Source: a bacterium (lineage in GTDB: Bacteria; Patescibacteriota; Minisyncoccia; Phycocordibacterales; UBA12079). From it: a stretch of DNA of 52,615 nucleotides. Under the pieces are notes generated by a model. That model was not told the origin of the DNA. It saw nothing but the letters and a program-made list of their open reading frames with translations, and ran no database searches. The DNA is taken from NCBI GenBank assembly GCA_018401295.1, contig JAGYLJ010000005.1, positions 1 to 52,615 of the forward strand, written 5' to 3'. The position numbers were made by a program, and so were the translations under genes. Positions 3,381-35,301 of this stretch are shown here, in pieces; position 1 is the first letter of the stretch, and the number at the start of each line of letters is the position of its first letter.

Positions 3381-4001
3381 GAAGTATTCCATTAACCTAA
3401 CAAAAAAAGACCTTCCGGTCTTTTTTGTGTGTCTGTGGGCGATGAGGGATTTGGTCACAAATATTTTGCTTCGCAAAATTTCGCTACCCCGACTCGGCGA
3501 CAAGCACTCGCTTCGCTCATCTTGTATACCGCCTCCGTCTTTCAAATCCCTATCGCTCCTACAAAATCAAAAATCCCAAAGCATTCGCTTTGGGACTTAA
3601 GATTTTGTGGGCGATGAGGGATTTGGTCCCCAGTTCTAATTATTTTAGTTCGCTTCACTCCTAAAATAATAAGAACTCTTGACCTCGCTCAGTCATATTT
3701 TTCTTTCGCTTCGCTTCAGAAAAATATATTCCCTCGGTTCAAATCCCTATCGCTCCTACAAAATCAAAAATCCCAAAGCATTCGCTTTGGGACTTAAGAT
3801 TTTGTGGGCGATGAGGGATTTGGTCCCCAGTTCTAATTATTTTAGTTCGCTTCACTCCTAAAATAATAAGAACTCTTGACCTCGCTCAGTCATATTTTTC
3901 TTTCGCTTCGCTTCAGAAAAATATATTCCCTCGGTTCAAATCCCTATCGCTCCTACAAAATCAAAAATCCCAAAGCATTCGCTTTGGGACTTAAGATTTT
4001 G
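3381..4001 (-). repeat. tRNA-associated repeat cluster 2, with 197-bp tandem units (after tRNA-Val)
   Basis: In tRNA sense this lies just 3' of tRNA-Val. Partial copies of the tRNA-Val 3' end (GGGCGATGAGGGATTTG on the plus strand) lie at 3437, 3609 and 3806, with the functional copy at 4003. The last three are exactly 197 bases apart and the units between them look near identical. Each unit also holds an inverted partial copy (CAAATCCCTATCGCTCC at 3543, 3740 and 3937) and a hairpin around CCCAAAGCATTCGCTTTGGG that serves as terminator next to the functional tRNA. No gene is present. Confidence 0.85.
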
Positions 4002-4074
4002 TGGGCGATGAGGGATTTGAACCCCCGACCTTCGCAGTGTAAATGCGCTGCTCTACCAACTGAGCTAATCGCCC
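4002..4074 (-). tRNA. tRNA-Val (anticodon TAC)
   Basis: On the minus strand the acceptor is GGGCGAT/ATCGCCC, the D arm GCTC-AGTTGGTA-GAGC, and the anticodon loop TTTACAC carries anticodon TAC. The T arm is TCGGGGGTTCAAATCCC. The discriminator is A and CCA is not encoded. Broken copies of this gene lie on both sides. Confidence 0.93.
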
Positions 4075-4117
4075 AAGTATAATTTTACTTGGTATTGTGT
4101 ATTTAATTTTCAATTCT

Positions 4118-4195
4118 CTGTAAAGCGCATTTACACTTAAGTGTAAATGATAGAAACTCCACCGTTTCTATCTCCGTCAACTGAGCTAATCGCCC
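4118..4195 (-). pseudogene. Broken tRNA-Val copy disrupted by palindromes
   Basis: On the minus strand the first 18 bases GGGCGATTAGCTCAGTTG match the functional tRNA-Val 5' end. The D stem then gives way to a hairpin (GATAGAAAC/GTTTCTATC, plus-strand 4149-4172), followed by a 22-base perfect palindrome CATTTACACTTAAGTGTAAATG at 4128-4149 built around the anticodon-region sequence. The remainder of the tRNA is missing. It lies 44 bases upstream of the intact tRNA-Val. Confidence 0.7.
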
Positions 4196-4243
4196 TTTTG
4201 TGTCCATAATTATATAGAAAAAACTAATCAAAATCAATCTAAT

Positions 4244-4834
4244 TTACAAAACAAAAATCAAGATCACAATAATCACAAAGACTACAAGAATCCAATTAAA
4301 ATATTCAAAAGCATTCTTCGCCACTTTTTTACCGAACAATTTAACAATATAACCCACAGCGAAAAATCTCAACCCCCTCCCTATCAAAGAGGCTAATAGA
4401 AATGTAAAGATATTTATATTGAAAAAACCCGCAGAGATAGTAAAAACCTTAAAAGGAATAGGAGTAAAGGCTGAAATAAAAATTGTCCAAAAGGCATTCT
4501 GAGAAAACATCTGAGAAACTGTTAACATCTGACTTTGTAAATTATAAGTATTCACAATAAACTCACCCACCAAACTAAAAAAGAAAAAACCTATCAAATA
4601 ACCAAACAATCCACCAACAACAGAAGCAACAGTAGTAATAAGAGAATAATATACCCACCTAGCTCCATTTTTTATCAAAATTGCCAAAAGGAAAACATCT
4701 GGTGGAATTACGAAAAAAGAAGCCTCTGTGAAAGAACAAATAATCAACCAAATTTTAGCCCTTCTCCCTTGAGATTTATTATCGACCCAGTCTTCAGTCC
4801 TCTCTTTTATTTTTTGTAAAAAATTTAAAATCAT
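4244..4834 (-). CDS. YqaA/DedA-like (VTT domain) membrane protein
   Basis: A 196-residue integral membrane protein with about five hydrophobic segments. The central part, EASFFVIPPDVFLLAILI followed by a glycine-rich stretch (GGLFGYLIGFFFF) and FTPIPFKVFTISAGF, matches the SNARE-associated/VTT superfamily, closest to the YqaA branch. Members are linked to lipid scrambling or membrane homeostasis, but the substrate here is unknown. It is the last gene of a minus-strand run with ruvX, starting five bases after the ruvX stop. Confidence 0.75.
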   Translation of the reverse strand: MILNFLQKIKERTEDWVDNKSQGRRAKIWLIICSFTEASFFVIPPDVFLLAILIKNGARWVYYSLITTVASVVGGLFGYLIGFFFFSLVGEFIVNTYNLQSQMLTVSQMFSQNAFWTIFISAFTPIPFKVFTISAGFFNINIFTFLLASLIGRGLRFFAVGYIVKLFGKKVAKNAFEYFNWILVVFVIIVILIFVL

Positions 4835-10663: not shown

Positions 10664-10812
10664 TTAGTCGAAAGTCTCTAATGTCTAAAGTCGAAAGTGA
10701 AAAATTTGCTTCCTAAACCAAAACTTCGTTTTGGTCGGACGAACATCAAAGATGTTTTAGTCGCAAATTTTTTGACTTTATGGACTTTACGGACTTTATG
10801 AACTTCTGACTA
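10664..10812. repeat. Intergenic repeat with inverted AGTC/GACT ends
   Basis: The left part has AGTCGAAAGT and TCTAAAGTCGAAAGTG. The right part has GACTTTATGGACTTTACGG then GACTTTATGAACTTCTGACT, roughly the inverse. Two palindromes lie between (CCAAAACTTCGTTTTGG; ACATCAAAGATGT). A related string, ACTTTCGACTTTATAGACTT, occurs at 27533-27552. No gene is seen. Confidence 0.55.
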
Positions 10813-10954
10813 TATTTATTAATTCATTTTATTAAACAAGATAAATAGTTCGACCCACTGGCTATTCCAAAGCTATCTATAGTTATGAGTATATACCCAT
10901 TAGATTTTAAAGTCAAATGATTTTCTTGTCATCTACTTTTATGATAAAATATTT

Positions 10955-11161
10955 ACCCTGTTAAATAAATTTAAATTTTTATAGAGATATGTTTTATGTA
11001 TATGTGATATAATTAAAAAGAGATAAGAAATCCTACACAAGACATACAAAAAATTTAAAGTTAAGATTTGACGAAAGCAAGAGATAAAATAGTATAAATA
11101 AAAAATATTATTAATTAACAATTAATATTTAGATATAGAGTCAAATCTTATTTAACAGGGT
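10955..11161. mobile_element. MITE-like element with terminal inverted repeats
   Basis: ACCCTGTTAAATAA at 10955-10968 is perfectly inverted at 11148-11161, and the match extends imperfectly outward. A second inverted pair, AAGATTTGAC (about 11062) and GTCAAATCTT (about 11140), lies inside. The 207-base unit is very AT-rich and holds no credible gene. The right end sits five bases before a decayed gene. It could be a non-autonomous element or a long RNA hairpin. Confidence 0.5.
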
Positions 11162-11165
11162 GAAT

Positions 11166-11655
11166 ATGGAAAAAGAAATAAAATGGCAGGCTTTTGAATA
11201 TGAACATACAACAAAATCCGCTGATTGGTTTTGATTGTTTGGATTATAGCAATCGGTATTGCAATCACAAATTCTCATTTATTTAACAACCCTCCTCTTT
11301 GGAAGATGTATTCTTATTAGTGCCTTTAGTCTTTCCATTTACGCAAGCAGAAAACCAGATTTATTAAATTTTACTTCCTCTCAGAGAGAGGATTTCTCAT
11401 CAAAGGGAAATTAGTACCATTTTCTGCAATACAATCATTCTGGGTAGAAAAGACCACCCGACCTCAACAAAGATAAACGGGCAAGGAAAGATCATTCTTC
11501 AATCCCAAACTAAAACTATCCCATATATTATCATTCCTCTATCAAAAGATGTTGACAAATTGAAGAGATAAGAGAGTATCTATTAAAACATCTTAAAAGA
11601 GGAAGAACACCAAGAAACTCTATTTCAAAAACTTTTCGAGAAATTAGGTTTTTAA
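11166..11655 (+). pseudogene. Decayed PH-like membrane protein gene
   Basis: The frame starts MEKEIKWQAFEYEHTTKSAD then stops at TGA. Other frames continue the same family: IIAIGIAITNSHLF, LRKQKTRFIKFYF, ERGFLIKGKLVPFSAIQSFW, and at the end KLGF-like ...REIRF. CPR genomes commonly carry an intact protein of this type, starting with IKWQAYEYEH...KSADWFW and followed by two membrane segments and a PH-like domain. Several frameshifts and stops are present, so the gene is dead unless the assembly is faulty. Confidence 0.7.
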
Positions 11656-11825: not shown

Positions 11826-11844
11826 TATTTTTATCTATGTTATT

Positions 11845-12350
11845 TTGTTTTATTAAACTAATTATGTAACTTTTAGGAACTGCCCCAAAATTTCTAGAAT
11901 CTTTACTGTCCGTTATATTGTCACCGAAAACAAAACTGTATCTTTGGTAAATATCCATCTTCTGGTATATAGTCCTAACATTTTTATTTCATTAGGCTAA
12001 AAATATAAATCTGTCCTACTGAATTTTTCATTACATCCCCATTTATCAGTAAATTTTTATCTTATTTCAAGGAAATCTCTTTATCAGTGGCCTTTACTAC
12101 CTTTATTAATAAATTTTCATTGGCAGAATGCTTAAATAAAACAATATCACCTCTTCTCTACTGTGTTATTTTTATAATAATCATCAACAACATTTACCAC
12201 TTCACCATGTGAAAACATTGGTTGCATAGAACTTCCGTTCACTATAATCTAATTTTTGCCCAACAATTTCTAAACAGAATTGTTTTGAAAGAAAAATACT
12301 TAATACAATAACGAACACTGTAAATAAGATTAAATGTATCTTTTTTTGTT
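11845..12350 (-). pseudogene. Decayed signal peptidase I gene
   Basis: On the minus strand fragments of a type I signal peptidase appear in shifting frames. They include NGSSMQPMFSHGEVVNVVDD (the GSSMxPT-like serine motif, plus-strand about 12190-12243), HSANENLLIKVVKATDKEI (the region with the catalytic lysine), and DNITDSKDSRNFGAVPKSYI (the conserved GDN...DSR box, about 11868-11930). At least three frame changes and internal stops interrupt it. A working signal peptidase is needed for the secreted proteins here and presumably lies elsewhere. Confidence 0.7.
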
Positions 12351-12589
12351 ATGCATAGAGTTGATTATATCATTTTTAATCTGATTTTTTAATAATTTTA
12401 TCACTTATTATTTAGCATCTTCTAAACCTTGAAAGAAGGGGAAAATGCTTTTTTATGCCTTTTGTTATACAAATGTATTTAGCAAAATCAAAAGAGAAAG
12501 ATTTTTATAAACAAGTTGACACAGTTATAGTTACAGAAAATTTATAAAAACAACCTTAAATATGAATTTAAAACTGCTAAAAATTCTTT

Positions 12590-13606
12590 AGTTGATTTTC
12601 AGTTATCTCTCCATTTTGATTTTCTATAATCTTGTTCCATTCCATTATCTTTTTATAAAACTTCTTTTATTTCTTTGCCCAATATAAATACGGTAAGGTT
12701 TAATTATTACCCCTAAAAATGAAACCCCTTAGTAAAAACTGTAAATAAATTTTTTTAGGGTGAATTTCCAAACTGCCTTTTTCTTAAATAATTGTGCTGA
12801 TTTTCGGAATTTAGAGATTTTTAAATTATTCTTTTATCTTGATGAACAAAACCATATCATCAACATACCTTATGTAATATTTACACCTTAATTAGTTTTC
12901 ACAAAGTGGTCAAAATCATTCAGGTAAACATTTCCAAAAAGTTGCGAGGTTAAATTACCAATCGGTAGACCCTCCCTGTTTAGTACAAAATAGGGATTTA
13001 GTTTTCGGTAAACCTACCCAATCACTCCCTTTACCTCTAATACAAAACAATGTTTTGGTTGATCATGAAAGATATTTAAATTGATTAAATGAAGTAATAA
13101 ATCTTTATTAATATTCAATTGCCCACCAAAACGATCAATCACTTTTTCTACTTTTTTGAAGAAAATTTCTATCAATCGACATAAAATACCCTTTAATATC
13201 TAATTTCAACACGTAACAATCTTGAGAATAATTTTTAGAGCAAGTACAAATAAAATAATCAAGTCTTTAATTCCTAAAGAAACTCCTTTTTTAAGTCGGC
13301 AACTATAGTAACTATCATAAATAAAAAGCCGTTCAAAAATGGATTTAAATGATTATAAATCAAATGATGGACAATTTATCTCTAAAATTGTCTAAAAATT
13401 TCTTCGTTGCACGGGGACTAAAAGACACAAAACACAAAACTACGAGAGATATCGTATTGATTATTTATAATTTCCTGATAAAGTTGAAATAAATTTTTTT
13501 CATAATTCATTTCAAAAGCTAAACAGTCTGAAGATTTTCTTTTATTTTTTCGGGCATCATAATAGGCCTTAAATAAATCTACTAAAAGTTTAGGTGGTTG
13601 TTGCAT
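12590..13606 (-). pseudogene. Degenerate DGR reverse transcriptase
   Basis: The 5' end is readable from ATG 13606: MQQPPKLLVDLFKAYYDARK and on to SRSFVFCVF, then TAG. Across shifted frames the rest of a DGR-type reverse transcriptase is recognisable: IVHHLIYNHLNP, FIYDSYYSCRLKKG, YVLKLDIKGYFMSIDR (catalytic motif A; about 13165-13214), EGLPIGNLTSQLFGNVYLND (the SQ motif typical of DGR enzymes; about 12910-12975) and IRYVDDMVLFIKIKE (YVDD; about 12838-12876). I count at least five frame changes or stops. It lies just past the template repeat, the normal place for a DGR reverse transcriptase. Confidence 0.85.
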
Positions 13607-13618
13607 ATATTTTAAATT

Positions 13619-13646: not shown

Positions 13647-13664
13647 AATAATTCACCAGTCCTA

Positions 13665-13840
13665 TAGACAACGGACGGAAAAGCCGTTCGCCTGATCGTT
13701 TGGGTTGCGGTTGACAGTAGAGTTGCTAGAGTTCAGGTTGCGTTTCCAAGCATTAGCCCCTGAGATAGAAGACGACCAAAAGTTCGCGTTCGTACCCAAA
13801 TTGTTGAAAGACCCATCGGTATTGCGGTTGCCGGAAAGAA
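13665..13840 (-). repeat. DGR template repeat (TR)
   Basis: This 176-base segment aligns without gaps to 14439-14614, offset exactly 774 bases. I count 20 mismatches and every one is a T on the plus strand here, that is an adenine on the coding strand. On the minus strand the TR would encode asparagine-rich sequence (LSGNRNTDGSFNN and so on) with AAC codons where the target varies. This is the signature of adenine-specific mutagenic retrohoming. It lies between avd and the reverse transcriptase remnant. Confidence 0.95.
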
Positions 13841-14019
13841 CCTATAGCTATAAGTAACCGTTTCATTCCTCTTTCATTCTGAAAGAAAAAAAGAAGTTTA
13901 ACAAAAAATGTCAAAAAATTCCTTAGTCTAAAAAACTAAGCAGGTTACGGAACTGATGTTATGTGTACTCTTATTTTTGCCTTAACAAAAATAACTCTGA
14001 CAACGATATTATATCATAC

Positions 14020-14364
14020 TTATTCACAAGATTTTTTCCAAGCTGATAATTGTTTACTGATTGATTCTATTTGTTCATTTAATATTATAAATTTTTTTAA
14101 ATTTATTTGTTTTAAATCTTTTATTAATCTTAAATATAATCGGATGGTTTCAGTATTTTTCTGAGCAATAATAATTTTTTCTTTTCTTTCAACAATTTCT
14201 CTATTGCTAAAATAAATATTACTTAGCAAGTCTACCACTTCCTTTTTAATACTTTCACCTAAAGTATATTTATAATCCTTAGAAAAATTATTGCTAAAAA
14301 TAAATAAATTTAATAACAATTCGTAACTTGTTCTATAAACTGGGAGATTAGAATAAATAGACAT
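14020..14364 (-). CDS. avd: DGR accessory protein Avd (four-helix bundle)
   Basis: A 114-residue helical protein. It starts MSIYSNLPVYRTSYELLLNL, has YKYTLGESIKKEVVDLLSNI in the middle and ends near LKQINLKKFIILNEQIESIS, then KQLSAWKKS. These match the Avd-type four-helix bundle of DGRs, which forms a basic pentameric barrel that binds the reverse transcriptase and template RNA. The gene is intact and placed between the variable repeat and the template repeat, the standard position. It is related in fold, but not close in sequence, to the S23-type gene at 18.7 kb. Confidence 0.9.
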   Translation of the reverse strand: MSIYSNLPVYRTSYELLLNLFIFSNNFSKDYKYTLGESIKKEVVDLLSNIYFSNREIVERKEKIIIAQKNTETIRLYLRLIKDLKQINLKKFIILNEQIESISKQLSAWKKSCE

Positions 14365-14429
14365 TTTTCAAAAAATTAAACGAGGCTTCGCCTCTTTAAA
14401 AAAAGAGTCAAAGGGTCAAAGGGTCGAAT

Positions 14430-15932
14430 TCAGTTCTTTAGACAACGGACGGAAAAGCCGCTCGCCTGATCGCCTGGGAAGCGGTGGACAGTAGAGTAGC
14501 TAGAGTACAGGTAGCGTTCCCAAGCACTAGCCCCTGAGATAGAAGACGACCAAAAGACCGCGTACGTACCCAAACCGTCGAAAGACCCACCGGTACTGCG
14601 GTAGCCGGAAAGAAGACCTTCAAAACCTGAGGAACCCCCCGTTTTTAAAGCTGTTCCTGCAGGATCACAGTCCCATACCCCTGAACGGCTTGTGTCACAA
14701 GTCCCTGTTGATAAATATTGATCAAGAGTGTCCTGTTCTGCGTCTGTAGGAATATGCCAACCAGCAGGGCAAATTCCTTGAGCTCCTGCTGTTTCAACAT
14801 ATTGCATCGCTTCATCCCAATTGTAGAAACCGCCGTAAGTAGTACAGTTAGCATCACTGTTGTCATAACACCACTTTTCTATTGTTCCGTTGTTAGTCGG
14901 TTCGGTAGCTCCTGAGGCTAATTTTGTTCCGATGTTTAAGTTTTCAGAGAACCAACACTGTGCCCCTATTTGGACAGTTGCGTAACTTTGCCCTCCATGA
15001 CGAATTGTTTTTCCACAACCTGTTTCTTCCACAATCCAGTTACTTCCATCACAATAGGTTATGGCACTGGCCCCTTCATCCCAACCTAATTGGTTTTCTA
15101 TCCCAGCTGTACAAGTTGTTCCGTCTGGCCACAATTCTGTTTTACTGGTTCCTGAAGCAGCGTCTACATAAGCTTTGGTAGCTACGTGGTCATCGGCTGT
15201 AGGAGTATCAGCAATGATATTTCCATTAATTTCTAATTTAGCGATTGGCGTAGTCGTCCCCACCCCCACATTCCCACTTGTATCAATAGTCATCTTAGAA
15301 GTCCCATTAGTAATAAATCTTAAGTCTGTATTAGTGTAGGTACCTATGAGACCTTGGGAGGTTCCTGACCAGATACCTGTGGTAATAGAGTTAGTGACAT
15401 CTGTGACTTTGAGAGCTTGTTGTCCTGTACCTGATAGTTCTAAGAGAGCTGAAGGAGTGGAGGTACCTACTCCGATGTTGCCTATGTTGTAATAGATATC
15501 AGAAGAGCCACTCCATTTACCCATATCTCCTACAGCATCAATCAGAGTACCGTCAGGTAATTGGAAACCTTCTGTGGAATAGATTTTACCTACTACTGAT
15601 AGCTTCTGTACTGGAGTGGTAGTGCCTACTCCGACATTCCCTGTGTTGTAATAGAGGTTATCTCCTAGTTTAGTCCAGAGGGTAGCTAAAGCTGTAATGA
15701 TGTATTCTAGTCTTTCTATGAGACTACCGTCATTGTTAGCTGTAACGGTGGAAGAATCAAAGTCATTGTCTGCATTGTTAGCTCCGAGGATGTTTTGTGG
15801 GAAGTCTTGATTGGAAGAAGCTGGACCCACTGTGGGTTCGATGAAGGCAGCTTGGGTGGTATTAGTAACTACAATGATTAACATCATTGTAGTTAGTAAT
15901 ATCACTGTTAAATTTCCTAATCCTTTGTGCAT
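14430..15932 (-). CDS. DGR-diversified secreted surface protein (FISUMP-type C-terminal domain)
   Basis: A 500-residue protein. Residues 1-28 are a signal peptide (ending TTQA). Residues 85-260 hold repeated stalk motifs GNVGVGTTTP, GNIGVGTSTP and GNVGVGTTTP, as in fibre and adhesin shafts. From about residue 305 a FISUMP-like C-lectin-type domain follows: GGQSYATVQIGAQCWFSENL, then WCYDNSDANC, then GICPAGWHIPTDAEQD. Near the end FEGLLSGYRSTGG, FWSSS and GFSVRCLKN carry the variable positions. It is probably displayed outside the cell and binds a ligand or partner cell. The first 200 residues resemble the protein encoded at 34.2-35.3 kb. Confidence 0.9.
   Translation of the reverse strand: MHKGLGNLTVILLTTMMLIIVVTNTTQAAFIEPTVGPASSNQDFPQNILGANNADNDFDSSTVTANNDGSLIERLEYIITALATLWTKLGDNLYYNTGNVGVGTTTPVQKLSVVGKIYSTEGFQLPDGTLIDAVGDMGKWSGSSDIYYNIGNIGVGTSTPSALLELSGTGQQALKVTDVTNSITTGIWSGTSQGLIGTYTNTDLRFITNGTSKMTIDTSGNVGVGTTTPIAKLEINGNIIADTPTADDHVATKAYVDAASGTSKTELWPDGTTCTAGIENQLGWDEGASAITYCDGSNWIVEETGCGKTIRHGGQSYATVQIGAQCWFSENLNIGTKLASGATEPTNNGTIEKWCYDNSDANCTTYGGFYNWDEAMQYVETAGAQGICPAGWHIPTDAEQDTLDQYLSTGTCDTSRSGVWDCDPAGTALKTGGSSGFEGLLSGYRSTGGSFDGLGTYAVFWSSSISGASAWERYLYSSYSTVHRFPGDQASGFSVRCLKN
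14439..14614 (-). repeat. DGR variable repeat (VR)
   Basis: The VR forms the last 59 codons or so of the target gene and matches the template repeat. Changes hit mainly AAC codons: Asn in the template becomes Tyr, Ser, Gly, Asp, Val, His or Phe in the target, and one Lys becomes Glu. The end nearest the stop codon (TAGACAACGGACGGAAAAGC on the plus strand) is invariant, as expected for the initiation-of-homing side. Confidence 0.95.
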
Positions 15933-18639: not shown

Positions 18640-19053
18640 AATTAAAAATGATAAATTAAAAATTAAAAATGACTGAAAAAGATAATTTGATACAAAAGAA
18701 AAGTTTTGATTTTGCTCTAAAAATTATTTCTTTATACAAAGAGCTTATTGAACAGAAAGAATATATAATATCTAAACAGTTAATTAGGAGCGGGACAAGT
18801 ATCGGGGCGAATATAGAGGAGTCTCTCGGAGGTCAAAGTAAAAAAGATTTTGTCCACAAGATGACAATATCTTTGAAGGAATCGCGAGAGACTAGATATT
18901 GGTTGAATTTGTTAAAAGAAAGTAATCTAGTTAATATAAATATTGATAGATATCTAGTTGAAATTAACGAAATAATATGTATTTTAACAAAAATAATAAA
19001 AACATCGTTAAAAAATTTATAATCTTTCATTTTTAATTTTTAATTTTTAATTC
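18640..19053 (+). mobile_element. S23-type gene bracketed by AT-rich inverted repeats
   Basis: Left end GAATTAAAAATGATAAATT followed by AAAAATTAAAAATGA, right end TCATTTTTAATTTTTAATTT followed by TTAATTC; the two are near-perfect inverses. The left repeat runs into the start codon and the right one begins three bases after the stop. The unit looks like a single-gene insertion between ruvA and murE. Confidence 0.5.
18669..19022 (+). CDS. Four-helix bundle protein (S23 / 23S-rRNA intervening sequence family)
   Basis: A 117-residue all-helical protein. LIQKKSFDFALKIISLYKEL, then LIRSGTSIGANIEESLGGQS, then MTISLKESRETRYWLNLLKE are the signature of the IVS-encoded S23 family. In some bacteria these genes sit inside 23S rRNA intervening sequences; stand-alone copies are common and of unknown role. 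The fold is shared with DGR Avd. Its position inside inverted repeats suggests mobility. No Shine-Dalgarno is seen. Confidence 0.85.
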   Translation: MTEKDNLIQKKSFDFALKIISLYKELIEQKEYIISKQLIRSGTSIGANIEESLGGQSKKDFVHKMTISLKESRETRYWLNLLKESNLVNINIDRYLVEINEIICILTKIIKTSLKNL

Positions 19054-34197: not shown

Positions 34198-35301
34198 TTA
34201 TATTTTTTGAACCCATGTTGTTCCATTATAATACCAAATTGTTCCATTCTTCCTAAATTCCCATTGAATATTGTCACTCCACACAACCTCAAAATTATCA
34301 CCATCCCAACGAACATAATTAGCGCCCCAGAACAATTGACCACTAGTACTAGTAATCTTAACATCACCATTTACCTCCAATTTCTCACCTGGATTCGTCG
34401 TCCCGATGCCGACGTTGCCTCCAGAAAAATTAAACACACCACCCTTAAATTGCATCTGTGTGTATTCGTTTATGGCATCATTGAAGGATGATATTGTAGC
34501 ATAACCATCATCAGTCATTAAACCTATGTTATTATTGGTTGCCATGTGTATCTGTAGTTTGCTATAAGTTGGGCTCGCCGTTCCGATGCCAACATTACCT
34601 TGTAATCCTAACCAAGTCTGTCCATTACTATTAAATGTTGCGTAGTCAGTTCCTTCATACTTTAAATCAAAAAGACTTGAACCATTATCCATACCTACTG
34701 ACCAATCCACAGTATCTTCGCTTATTCCCAAAAATGTTCCACTTATACCATCTTTGATATGTAGTTTCTGTCCCGGCCCCGTCGTCCCCACCCCCACATT
34801 CCCACTTGTATCAATAGTCATCTTAGAAGTTCCATTAGTTAAGAAACGAAGATCTGTATTAGTTAGAGTTCCTATGGAGCCTTGAGTAGTACCTGACCAG
34901 ATACCTGTGGTAATAGAGTTAGTGACATCTGTGACTTTGAGAGCTGATTGTCCATCTCCTGAGACTTCGAGGAGAGCAGAAGGTGTGGAGGTACCTATAC
35001 CTACATTACCTGTGTTGTAATAGAGTAAGTTACCTACTTTTGTCCAGAGGGAGGAGAGAGATGTAATGATGTATTCTAGTCTTTCTATGAGACTACCATC
35101 GTTATTAGCTGTGACATTGGTAGAATCAAAGTCATTGTTGTTATTGTTAGCTCCTAGGATGTTTTGGGGAAAGTCTTGATCTGAAGAGGATGGGGCTGTT
35201 GTGGGTTCGGTGAAGGCTGCGTTTAGTGTTTTAGTAAAGATAAACATAGTGAAAATCACTATAGTTAGTATTCTAATAGATTGTAAGTGGTTTTTTTTCA
35301 C
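34198..35301 (-). CDS. Secreted fibre-like surface protein, paralogue of the DGR target
   Basis: A 367-residue protein with signal peptide (cleavage near residue 28) and stalk motifs GNVGIGTSTP, GNVGVGTTGP, GNVGIGTASP and GNVGIGTTNP. Residues 1-165 match the DGR target (DQDFPQNILGANN; SLIERLEYIIT; TNSITTGIWSGT) and the DNA at 34780-34990 is close to that at 15235-15450. The C-terminal part differs: no FISUMP domain and no variable repeat; it ends KNGTIWYYNGTTWVQKI. It is likely exported and shares an assembly or anchoring region with the target. Confidence 0.78.
   Translation of the reverse strand: MKKNHLQSIRILTIVIFTMFIFTKTLNAAFTEPTTAPSSSDQDFPQNILGANNNNNDFDSTNVTANNDGSLIERLEYIITSLSSLWTKVGNLLYYNTGNVGIGTSTPSALLEVSGDGQSALKVTDVTNSITTGIWSGTTQGSIGTLTNTDLRFLTNGTSKMTIDTSGNVGVGTTGPGQKLHIKDGISGTFLGISEDTVDWSVGMDNGSSLFDLKYEGTDYATFNSNGQTWLGLQGNVGIGTASPTYSKLQIHMATNNNIGLMTDDGYATISSFNDAINEYTQMQFKGGVFNFSGGNVGIGTTNPGEKLEVNGDVKITSTSGQLFWGANYVRWDGDNFEVVWSDNIQWEFRKNGTIWYYNGTTWVQKI

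Follow-up and report, generated by a model that had tools for sequence, protein, structure and literature searches.

The diversity-generating retroelement (DGR) of Bordetella phage BPP-1 is the prototype of its kind: it follows the order variable repeat (VR), avd, template repeat (TR) and reverse transcriptase (RT), carries the VR at the 3′ end of its target gene and diversifies it by mutagenesis of adenines. In a cassette classification, the BPP-1 element is named type G1, and both canonical and RT-inverted cassette types are described (PMC6642488). Fib_succ_major (FISUMP) domains have already been published as DGR targets in human microbiomes, where A-only substitutions are reported for one TR/VR pair (PMC4159848). 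Roux et al. 2021 describe a Patescibacteria-restricted DGR clade (clade 2), a mixed clade with Bacteroidetes and transfer between unrelated organisms (PMC8144416).

The locus considered here lies in a window of 52,615 nucleotides, which is the whole stretch of DNA that was analysed, and is a DGR, a known kind of element. This identification, already made in a preliminary description, is supported by a strict A-bias, an avd gene, a VR that closes a FISUMP target gene at its 3′ end and homology to DGR-type RTs beside the TR, the RT itself being unreadable as assembled. The locus shares with BPP-1 the VR - avd - TR - RT order, the position of the VR at the target 3′ end and the mutagenesis of adenines; unlike the phage element, it is chromosomal in a CPR-type bacterium, has a FISUMP target and lacks a readable RT frame in the assembly. 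Its features are as follows.

11842..12248, minus strand: signal-peptidase-like gene neighbouring the RT, frame-broken, with 2 frameshifts and 1 stop relative to an intact paralogue
12548..13609, minus strand: DGR-type RT gene by homology, frame broken, GLPIGNLTSQ and YVDD motifs readable
13657..13664, minus strand: 3′ edge of the TR, with two non-A mismatches to 14431-14438
13665..13840, minus strand: TR, non-coding, with 42 A, 20 of them altered in the VR
14020..14364, minus strand: bAvd gene, 114 aa, intact (PF22296, E 8.8e-13)
14430..15932, minus strand: target (variable) protein gene, 500 aa, with a hydrophobic N-terminus, repeated NVGVGTTTP stalk motifs and a C-terminal FISUMP domain
14439..14614, minus strand: VR, the final ~59 codons of the target, 16 of which differ from the TR

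Read on the coding (minus) strand, positions 13840-13665 align with 14614-14439 over 176 bases with no gaps and 20 mismatches, and the alignment thus confirms the ungapped repeat pair of the preliminary description. All 20 mismatches fall on template adenines (11 A>G, 8 A>T and 1 A>C), as had also been claimed, an outcome with a probability of 4.7e-15 under random placement. The remaining 22 of the 42 adenines are unchanged, none of the 134 non-A positions differs between TR and VR, and a non-A mismatch, the observation that had been named as fatal to a DGR, is thus absent from the 176 bases. The changes affect first (12) and second (8) codon positions and no third position. Every one of the 14 Asn codons (AAC or AAT) in the TR frame is altered in the VR, to the Tyr, Ser, Asp, Gly, Val, His and Phe codons that had been listed, and two further changes, Asp448Gly and Lys472Glu, bring the total to 16 codons. 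The repeat can be extended to 184 bases (13657-13840 and 14431-14614) by 8 more bases at the 3′ edge, which include two non-A mismatches, T>A at 13664 and G>A at 13661; both lie where the target gene ends, and they may either be signals specific to the template end or simply mark the limit of homology. A search of the genome with the TR returned the TR itself and the VR, and no further VR in an assembly that is 76.8% complete. With no non-A difference, the pair looks recently rewritten.

By analogy with known DGRs, the TR RNA would be copied by the DGR RT together with Avd, with misreading of adenines, and the mutated cDNA would replace the VR, such that the Asn-coded positions of the FISUMP tip would vary on a stalked, apparently exported protein; within this scheme, the A-only read-out is the part seen directly at this locus.

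The VR forms the 3′ end of the target gene, whose 500-aa frame stays open, and the encoded C-terminus (residues 320-499) matches the FISUMP family PF09603 (E 2.8e-32) as well as TIGR02145 (E 1.1e-32), in agreement with the earlier assignment of the VR to the C-terminus of a FISUMP-type protein. Read by eye, the hydrophobic N-terminus looks like an export signal. A minus-strand paralogue of the target lies at 34201-35301, with the same N-terminus and stalk and with neither a FISUMP domain nor a VR. The N-terminal half of the target is 57% identical to this FISUMP-less protein (131 of 229 columns, with 53 columns gapped), and the variable tip is therefore carried on a host-type stalk that the host uses elsewhere. 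The DGRs of PMC4159848 are alike in that their exported targets end in a C-terminal FISUMP domain, and differ in coming from human gut metagenomes and in their N-terminal fusions, such as Mfa2, whereas here the stalk is common to a host paralogue. The structure model of the FISUMP domain has a mean pLDDT of 59.8, too uncertain to position the variable residues, around which a C-type lectin fold would be expected in a DGR; this low-confidence model found no match among PDB folds at E <= 0.001, and the FISUMP sequence found none among PDB sequences at E <= 0.01.

The avd gene, an accessory that is usual but not universal in DGRs, lies between the repeats, where it had been placed beforehand, and scores 49.1 bits against the bAvd profile PF22296 (cut-off 40); with NF033474 (DivGenRetAVD) it reaches 43.8 bits, under the cut-off of 80 of that profile. 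Together, avd (345 b) and the TR (176 b) make 521 b with zero indels. The Avd of this locus is also weakly matched by PF05635, the family of a second gene of the window at 18669-19022 on the plus strand, which encodes a four-helix protein of the 23S rRNA intervening-sequence type (E 1.2e-25) and adjoins ruvA-like and Mur-ligase-like genes, labelled by eye.

The nearest system found is the DGR of L075 (JAJXZR010000015.1, from the metagenome-assembled genome 'bacterium isolate BP7.bin63'), in which the FISUMP target, avd (114 aa), TR and RT follow one another as they do here, all on one strand, with matches at the target C-terminus (E 4e-76) and avd (E 1.6e-36) and 58% identity in the RT. Unlike the present locus, it has an open RT (417 aa), and its TR and VR show 9 non-A beside 9 A differences in 185 positions. 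Compared with these 9 and 9, the 20 A and zero non-A differences found here make this pair look more recently homogenised than that of L075, despite the open RT of the latter. The pair of L087 carries 7 A and 1 non-A differences in 188. Among relatives of the same family, in which the copy adjoining the RT was taken as the template, the mismatches at template A amount to 14 of 15 in L013, 14 of 14 in L014, 7 of 8 in L015 and 18 of 21 in L016. In L013 and L014, the RT is intact and lies on the strand opposite to the TR, avd and target.

The remains of the RT begin about 60 bases beyond the TR, and their homology extends to 12448 when L087 or L063 serves as the reference. Within 13609-12548, the sole minus-strand ORF of at least 60 aa has 62 aa. 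In a frameshift-aware alignment to L075, the nearest intact RT found, 193 of 332 residues are identical (58%) over 1.06 kb, with 21 frameshifts and no in-frame stop. The alignment to L087 likewise counts 21 frameshifts and is free of stops, at 205 of 365 identical residues. More distant references give 18 (L013), 12 (L014) and 15 (L020) frameshifts with 2, 0 and 1 stops, respectively, and the count depends on the frameshift penalty, the extremes with L013 being 11 frameshifts, accompanied by 4 stops, and 32, accompanied by 1. The indel density is ~1 per 50 b (or, as a range, 11-21 per ~1.1 kb), yet no stop interrupts the reading, in which 49 of the 56 conserved residues (0.875) survive. The preliminary description had named the absence of Avd or RT homology as a refuter: both are present, with DGR-type RT homology beside the TR, but the RT frame, on whose state that description was silent, is unreadable as assembled, and the record as it stands does not amount to a functional cassette with all its parts.

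Judging from the spectrum of the damage, the RT frameshifts are most probably a local sequence or assembly error over roughly 11.9-13.45 kb rather than decay: the substitution load is far too low for the indel load, and avd and the TR are free of indels. Intact RT relatives were damaged in silico, scored like this RT and counted when conservation stayed at 0.857 or more with 0 stops. Such genes made up 73 of 100 with 18 indels and 45 of 100 with 30 indels at 0% substitution, 17 and 11 of 100 at 2%, 3 and 1 of 100 at 4%, and 0 and 1 of 100 at 6%; at 8, 12 and 15% together, there were 0 in 600. A second simulation set showed the same trend, the RT fitting about 0-2% substitution with many indels. 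Natural divergence in this genome has a different composition, since its non-coding repeats show 513 mismatches and 74 gap openings, ~7:1, over 26 pairs in 167 kb (the window plus 11 sampled stretches); tRNA genes and palindromes are among these pairs, which are also not independent of one another. At ~7 mismatches per gap, 21 natural indels would therefore bring ~150 substitutions to the RT (14%), a load that the simulations exclude.

Outside this patch, the window reads cleanly, which counts against the error reading. The patch itself holds 8 homopolymer runs of at least 6, against a mean of 10.6; there is no excess, and the count does not separate error from decay. The signal-peptidase-like gene at 11842-12248 has an intact counterpart, a paralogue on contig C12 of the same genome. 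Like the RT, it is thus dispensable and what real decay would choose, which counts against sequence error, as does the in-frame stop that it contains. Because of the intact copy, its use as a sole-copy test of error or decay was undecisive and was dropped.

Two repeat regions lie elsewhere in the window: an ORF-free stretch at 10664-11183 has interspersed repeats shared with contigs C9 (L145, 89% over 151 b), C1 (L141) and C27 (L151), and tandem copies ~197 bases apart occur at 3567-4246 beside a tRNA-Val gene, with similar stretches on C12 (L147) and C3 (L142).

The same assembly, 76.8% complete, contains no second DGR RT, a DGR-RT query matching only the broken gene. One RT exceeds the Pfam cut-off, on contig C27. 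Matches to the DGR-RT profile in the genome were counted, without positions, as three; the broken gene, split into two halves, should account for two of them, and the remaining one may come from C27. The C27 RT was rejected as a DGR helper: it is a retron-type RT (RT-Protease_XI, E 4.5e-142) with no match to the DGR-RT query L013 at E <= 1. As an observation in its own right, this 549-aa RT fused to a trypsin-like protease (L001:401-2050, plus strand) is a candidate type XI retron in a CPR-type genome, and a gene start that by eye resembles a DNA cytosine methyltransferase lies just downstream.

The host is Parcubacteria-like by its 16S, which among 22 genomes searched (20 matched) is at best 88% identical to a same-family genome, 83% to one of Campbellbacteria and 81% to one of the Parcubacteria group. 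That DGRs are common in CPR, as the preliminary description stated, holds for this order, in which 174 of 397 genomes match the DGR-RT profile at E <= 0.001, the weakest of these matches possibly being other RTs.

In a tree of 110 RTs built by a quick method, 2 of 111 rows (L091_0 and L060_8195) having been dropped beforehand, the RT read-through pairs with L075 (support 92) and L087 (91), a placement biased toward L075 because the read-through was fitted to it. It sits inside a 13-row set (95) and a Bacteroidota-rich 33-row set (99). The DGR RTs of the host's own order group apart in a 29-row clade (100) that includes those of L015, L016 and L020 from the same family; the RTs of L013 and L014, also of the same family, fall elsewhere again, in a lineage unlike that of this RT. 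The best matches of the intact Avd are L075 (1.6e-36), L057 of Bacteroidetes and L087, those of L014 and L013 reaching 3.9e-17 and 5.6e-17; they agree with the RT placement despite its bias. To judge from these comparisons, the cassette was likely exchanged, in one direction or the other, between Bacteroidota-type bacteria and CPR. By inference, the 29-row clade would correspond to clade 2 of Roux et al. 2021 (PMC8144416). The present DGR resembles clade 2 in host group and differs from it in that its RT lies outside the order clade, in the Bacteroidota-rich set, and in having a target with a recognisable domain. An origin from a phage or virus was rejected: Avd had no match in the phage collection and the TR core pattern none in viral contigs, and the RT read-through matched 6 viral loci at 26-30% identity only.

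Taken together, we consider it probable that this is a canonical-order minus-strand DGR (target/VR - avd - TR - RT) in a Parcubacteria-like host, with a recently rewritten repeat pair and an RT that is intact in the cell, the 21 frameshifts being assembly errors. A plain segmental duplication under selection, with no retroelement, would account for two repeats of which one is covered by an open frame, but is refuted, with next to no probability left to it, by the restriction of all 20 changes to template A, the alteration of all 14 Asn codons, the Avd and DGR RT alongside and the same A-bias in L013, L014 and L087. The more serious alternatives accept the RT damage as real. If the DGR were dead, TR and VR having been frozen since the last rewriting, this would account for the broken RT and the broken signal peptidase beside it, which lie in an ORF-poor stretch that, rRNA aside, is the longest of the 167 kb examined. 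At the indel density of the RT, however, ~5 to 10 indels are expected in the TR and avd, which would serve no purpose once the RT was dead and yet hold none in their 521 b; moreover, none of the 134 non-A sites differs and the RT has far too few substitutions for its indels, so that this explanation appears improbable.

It is also rather unlikely that the RT gene in cis is truly a pseudogene and that the TR/VR pair is kept active by a trans-acting DGR RT, supplied either by the portion of the genome that the assembly lacks or by another element in the cell. Pristine TR, VR and avd beside a shredded RT are what such a helper would leave, the incompleteness of the assembly could hide it, and many genomes of the order (the 174 of 397) encode a DGR RT. 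Against it, no other DGR RT occurs in the assembly, where the sole RT over the cut-off is of the retron/protease type, and a substitution-free decay misfits the genome's own indel ratio. In the literature searched, no report was found of a DGR driven in trans after losing its own RT, a weak negative as subscription papers lie mostly outside that search. That a reduced CPR genome would thus maintain a non-autonomous DGR, its own RT truly destroyed by indels and its TR, VR and Avd pristine and still used with an RT supplied in trans, is a doubtful proposition.

The locus is most probably an ordinary DGR whose TR and VR were correctly read in the preliminary description, with the caveat that its RT is unreadable in the record, most probably for a technical cause. 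It is a further clean DGR, apparently rewritten not long ago, from a Parcubacteria-like genome, and in it a FISUMP module of a Bacteroidota-rich lineage is carried on a host-type stalk. It also illustrates that a local patch of indels can make a DGR look RT-less in a draft genome, and that surveys demanding an open RT frame would miss such a DGR.
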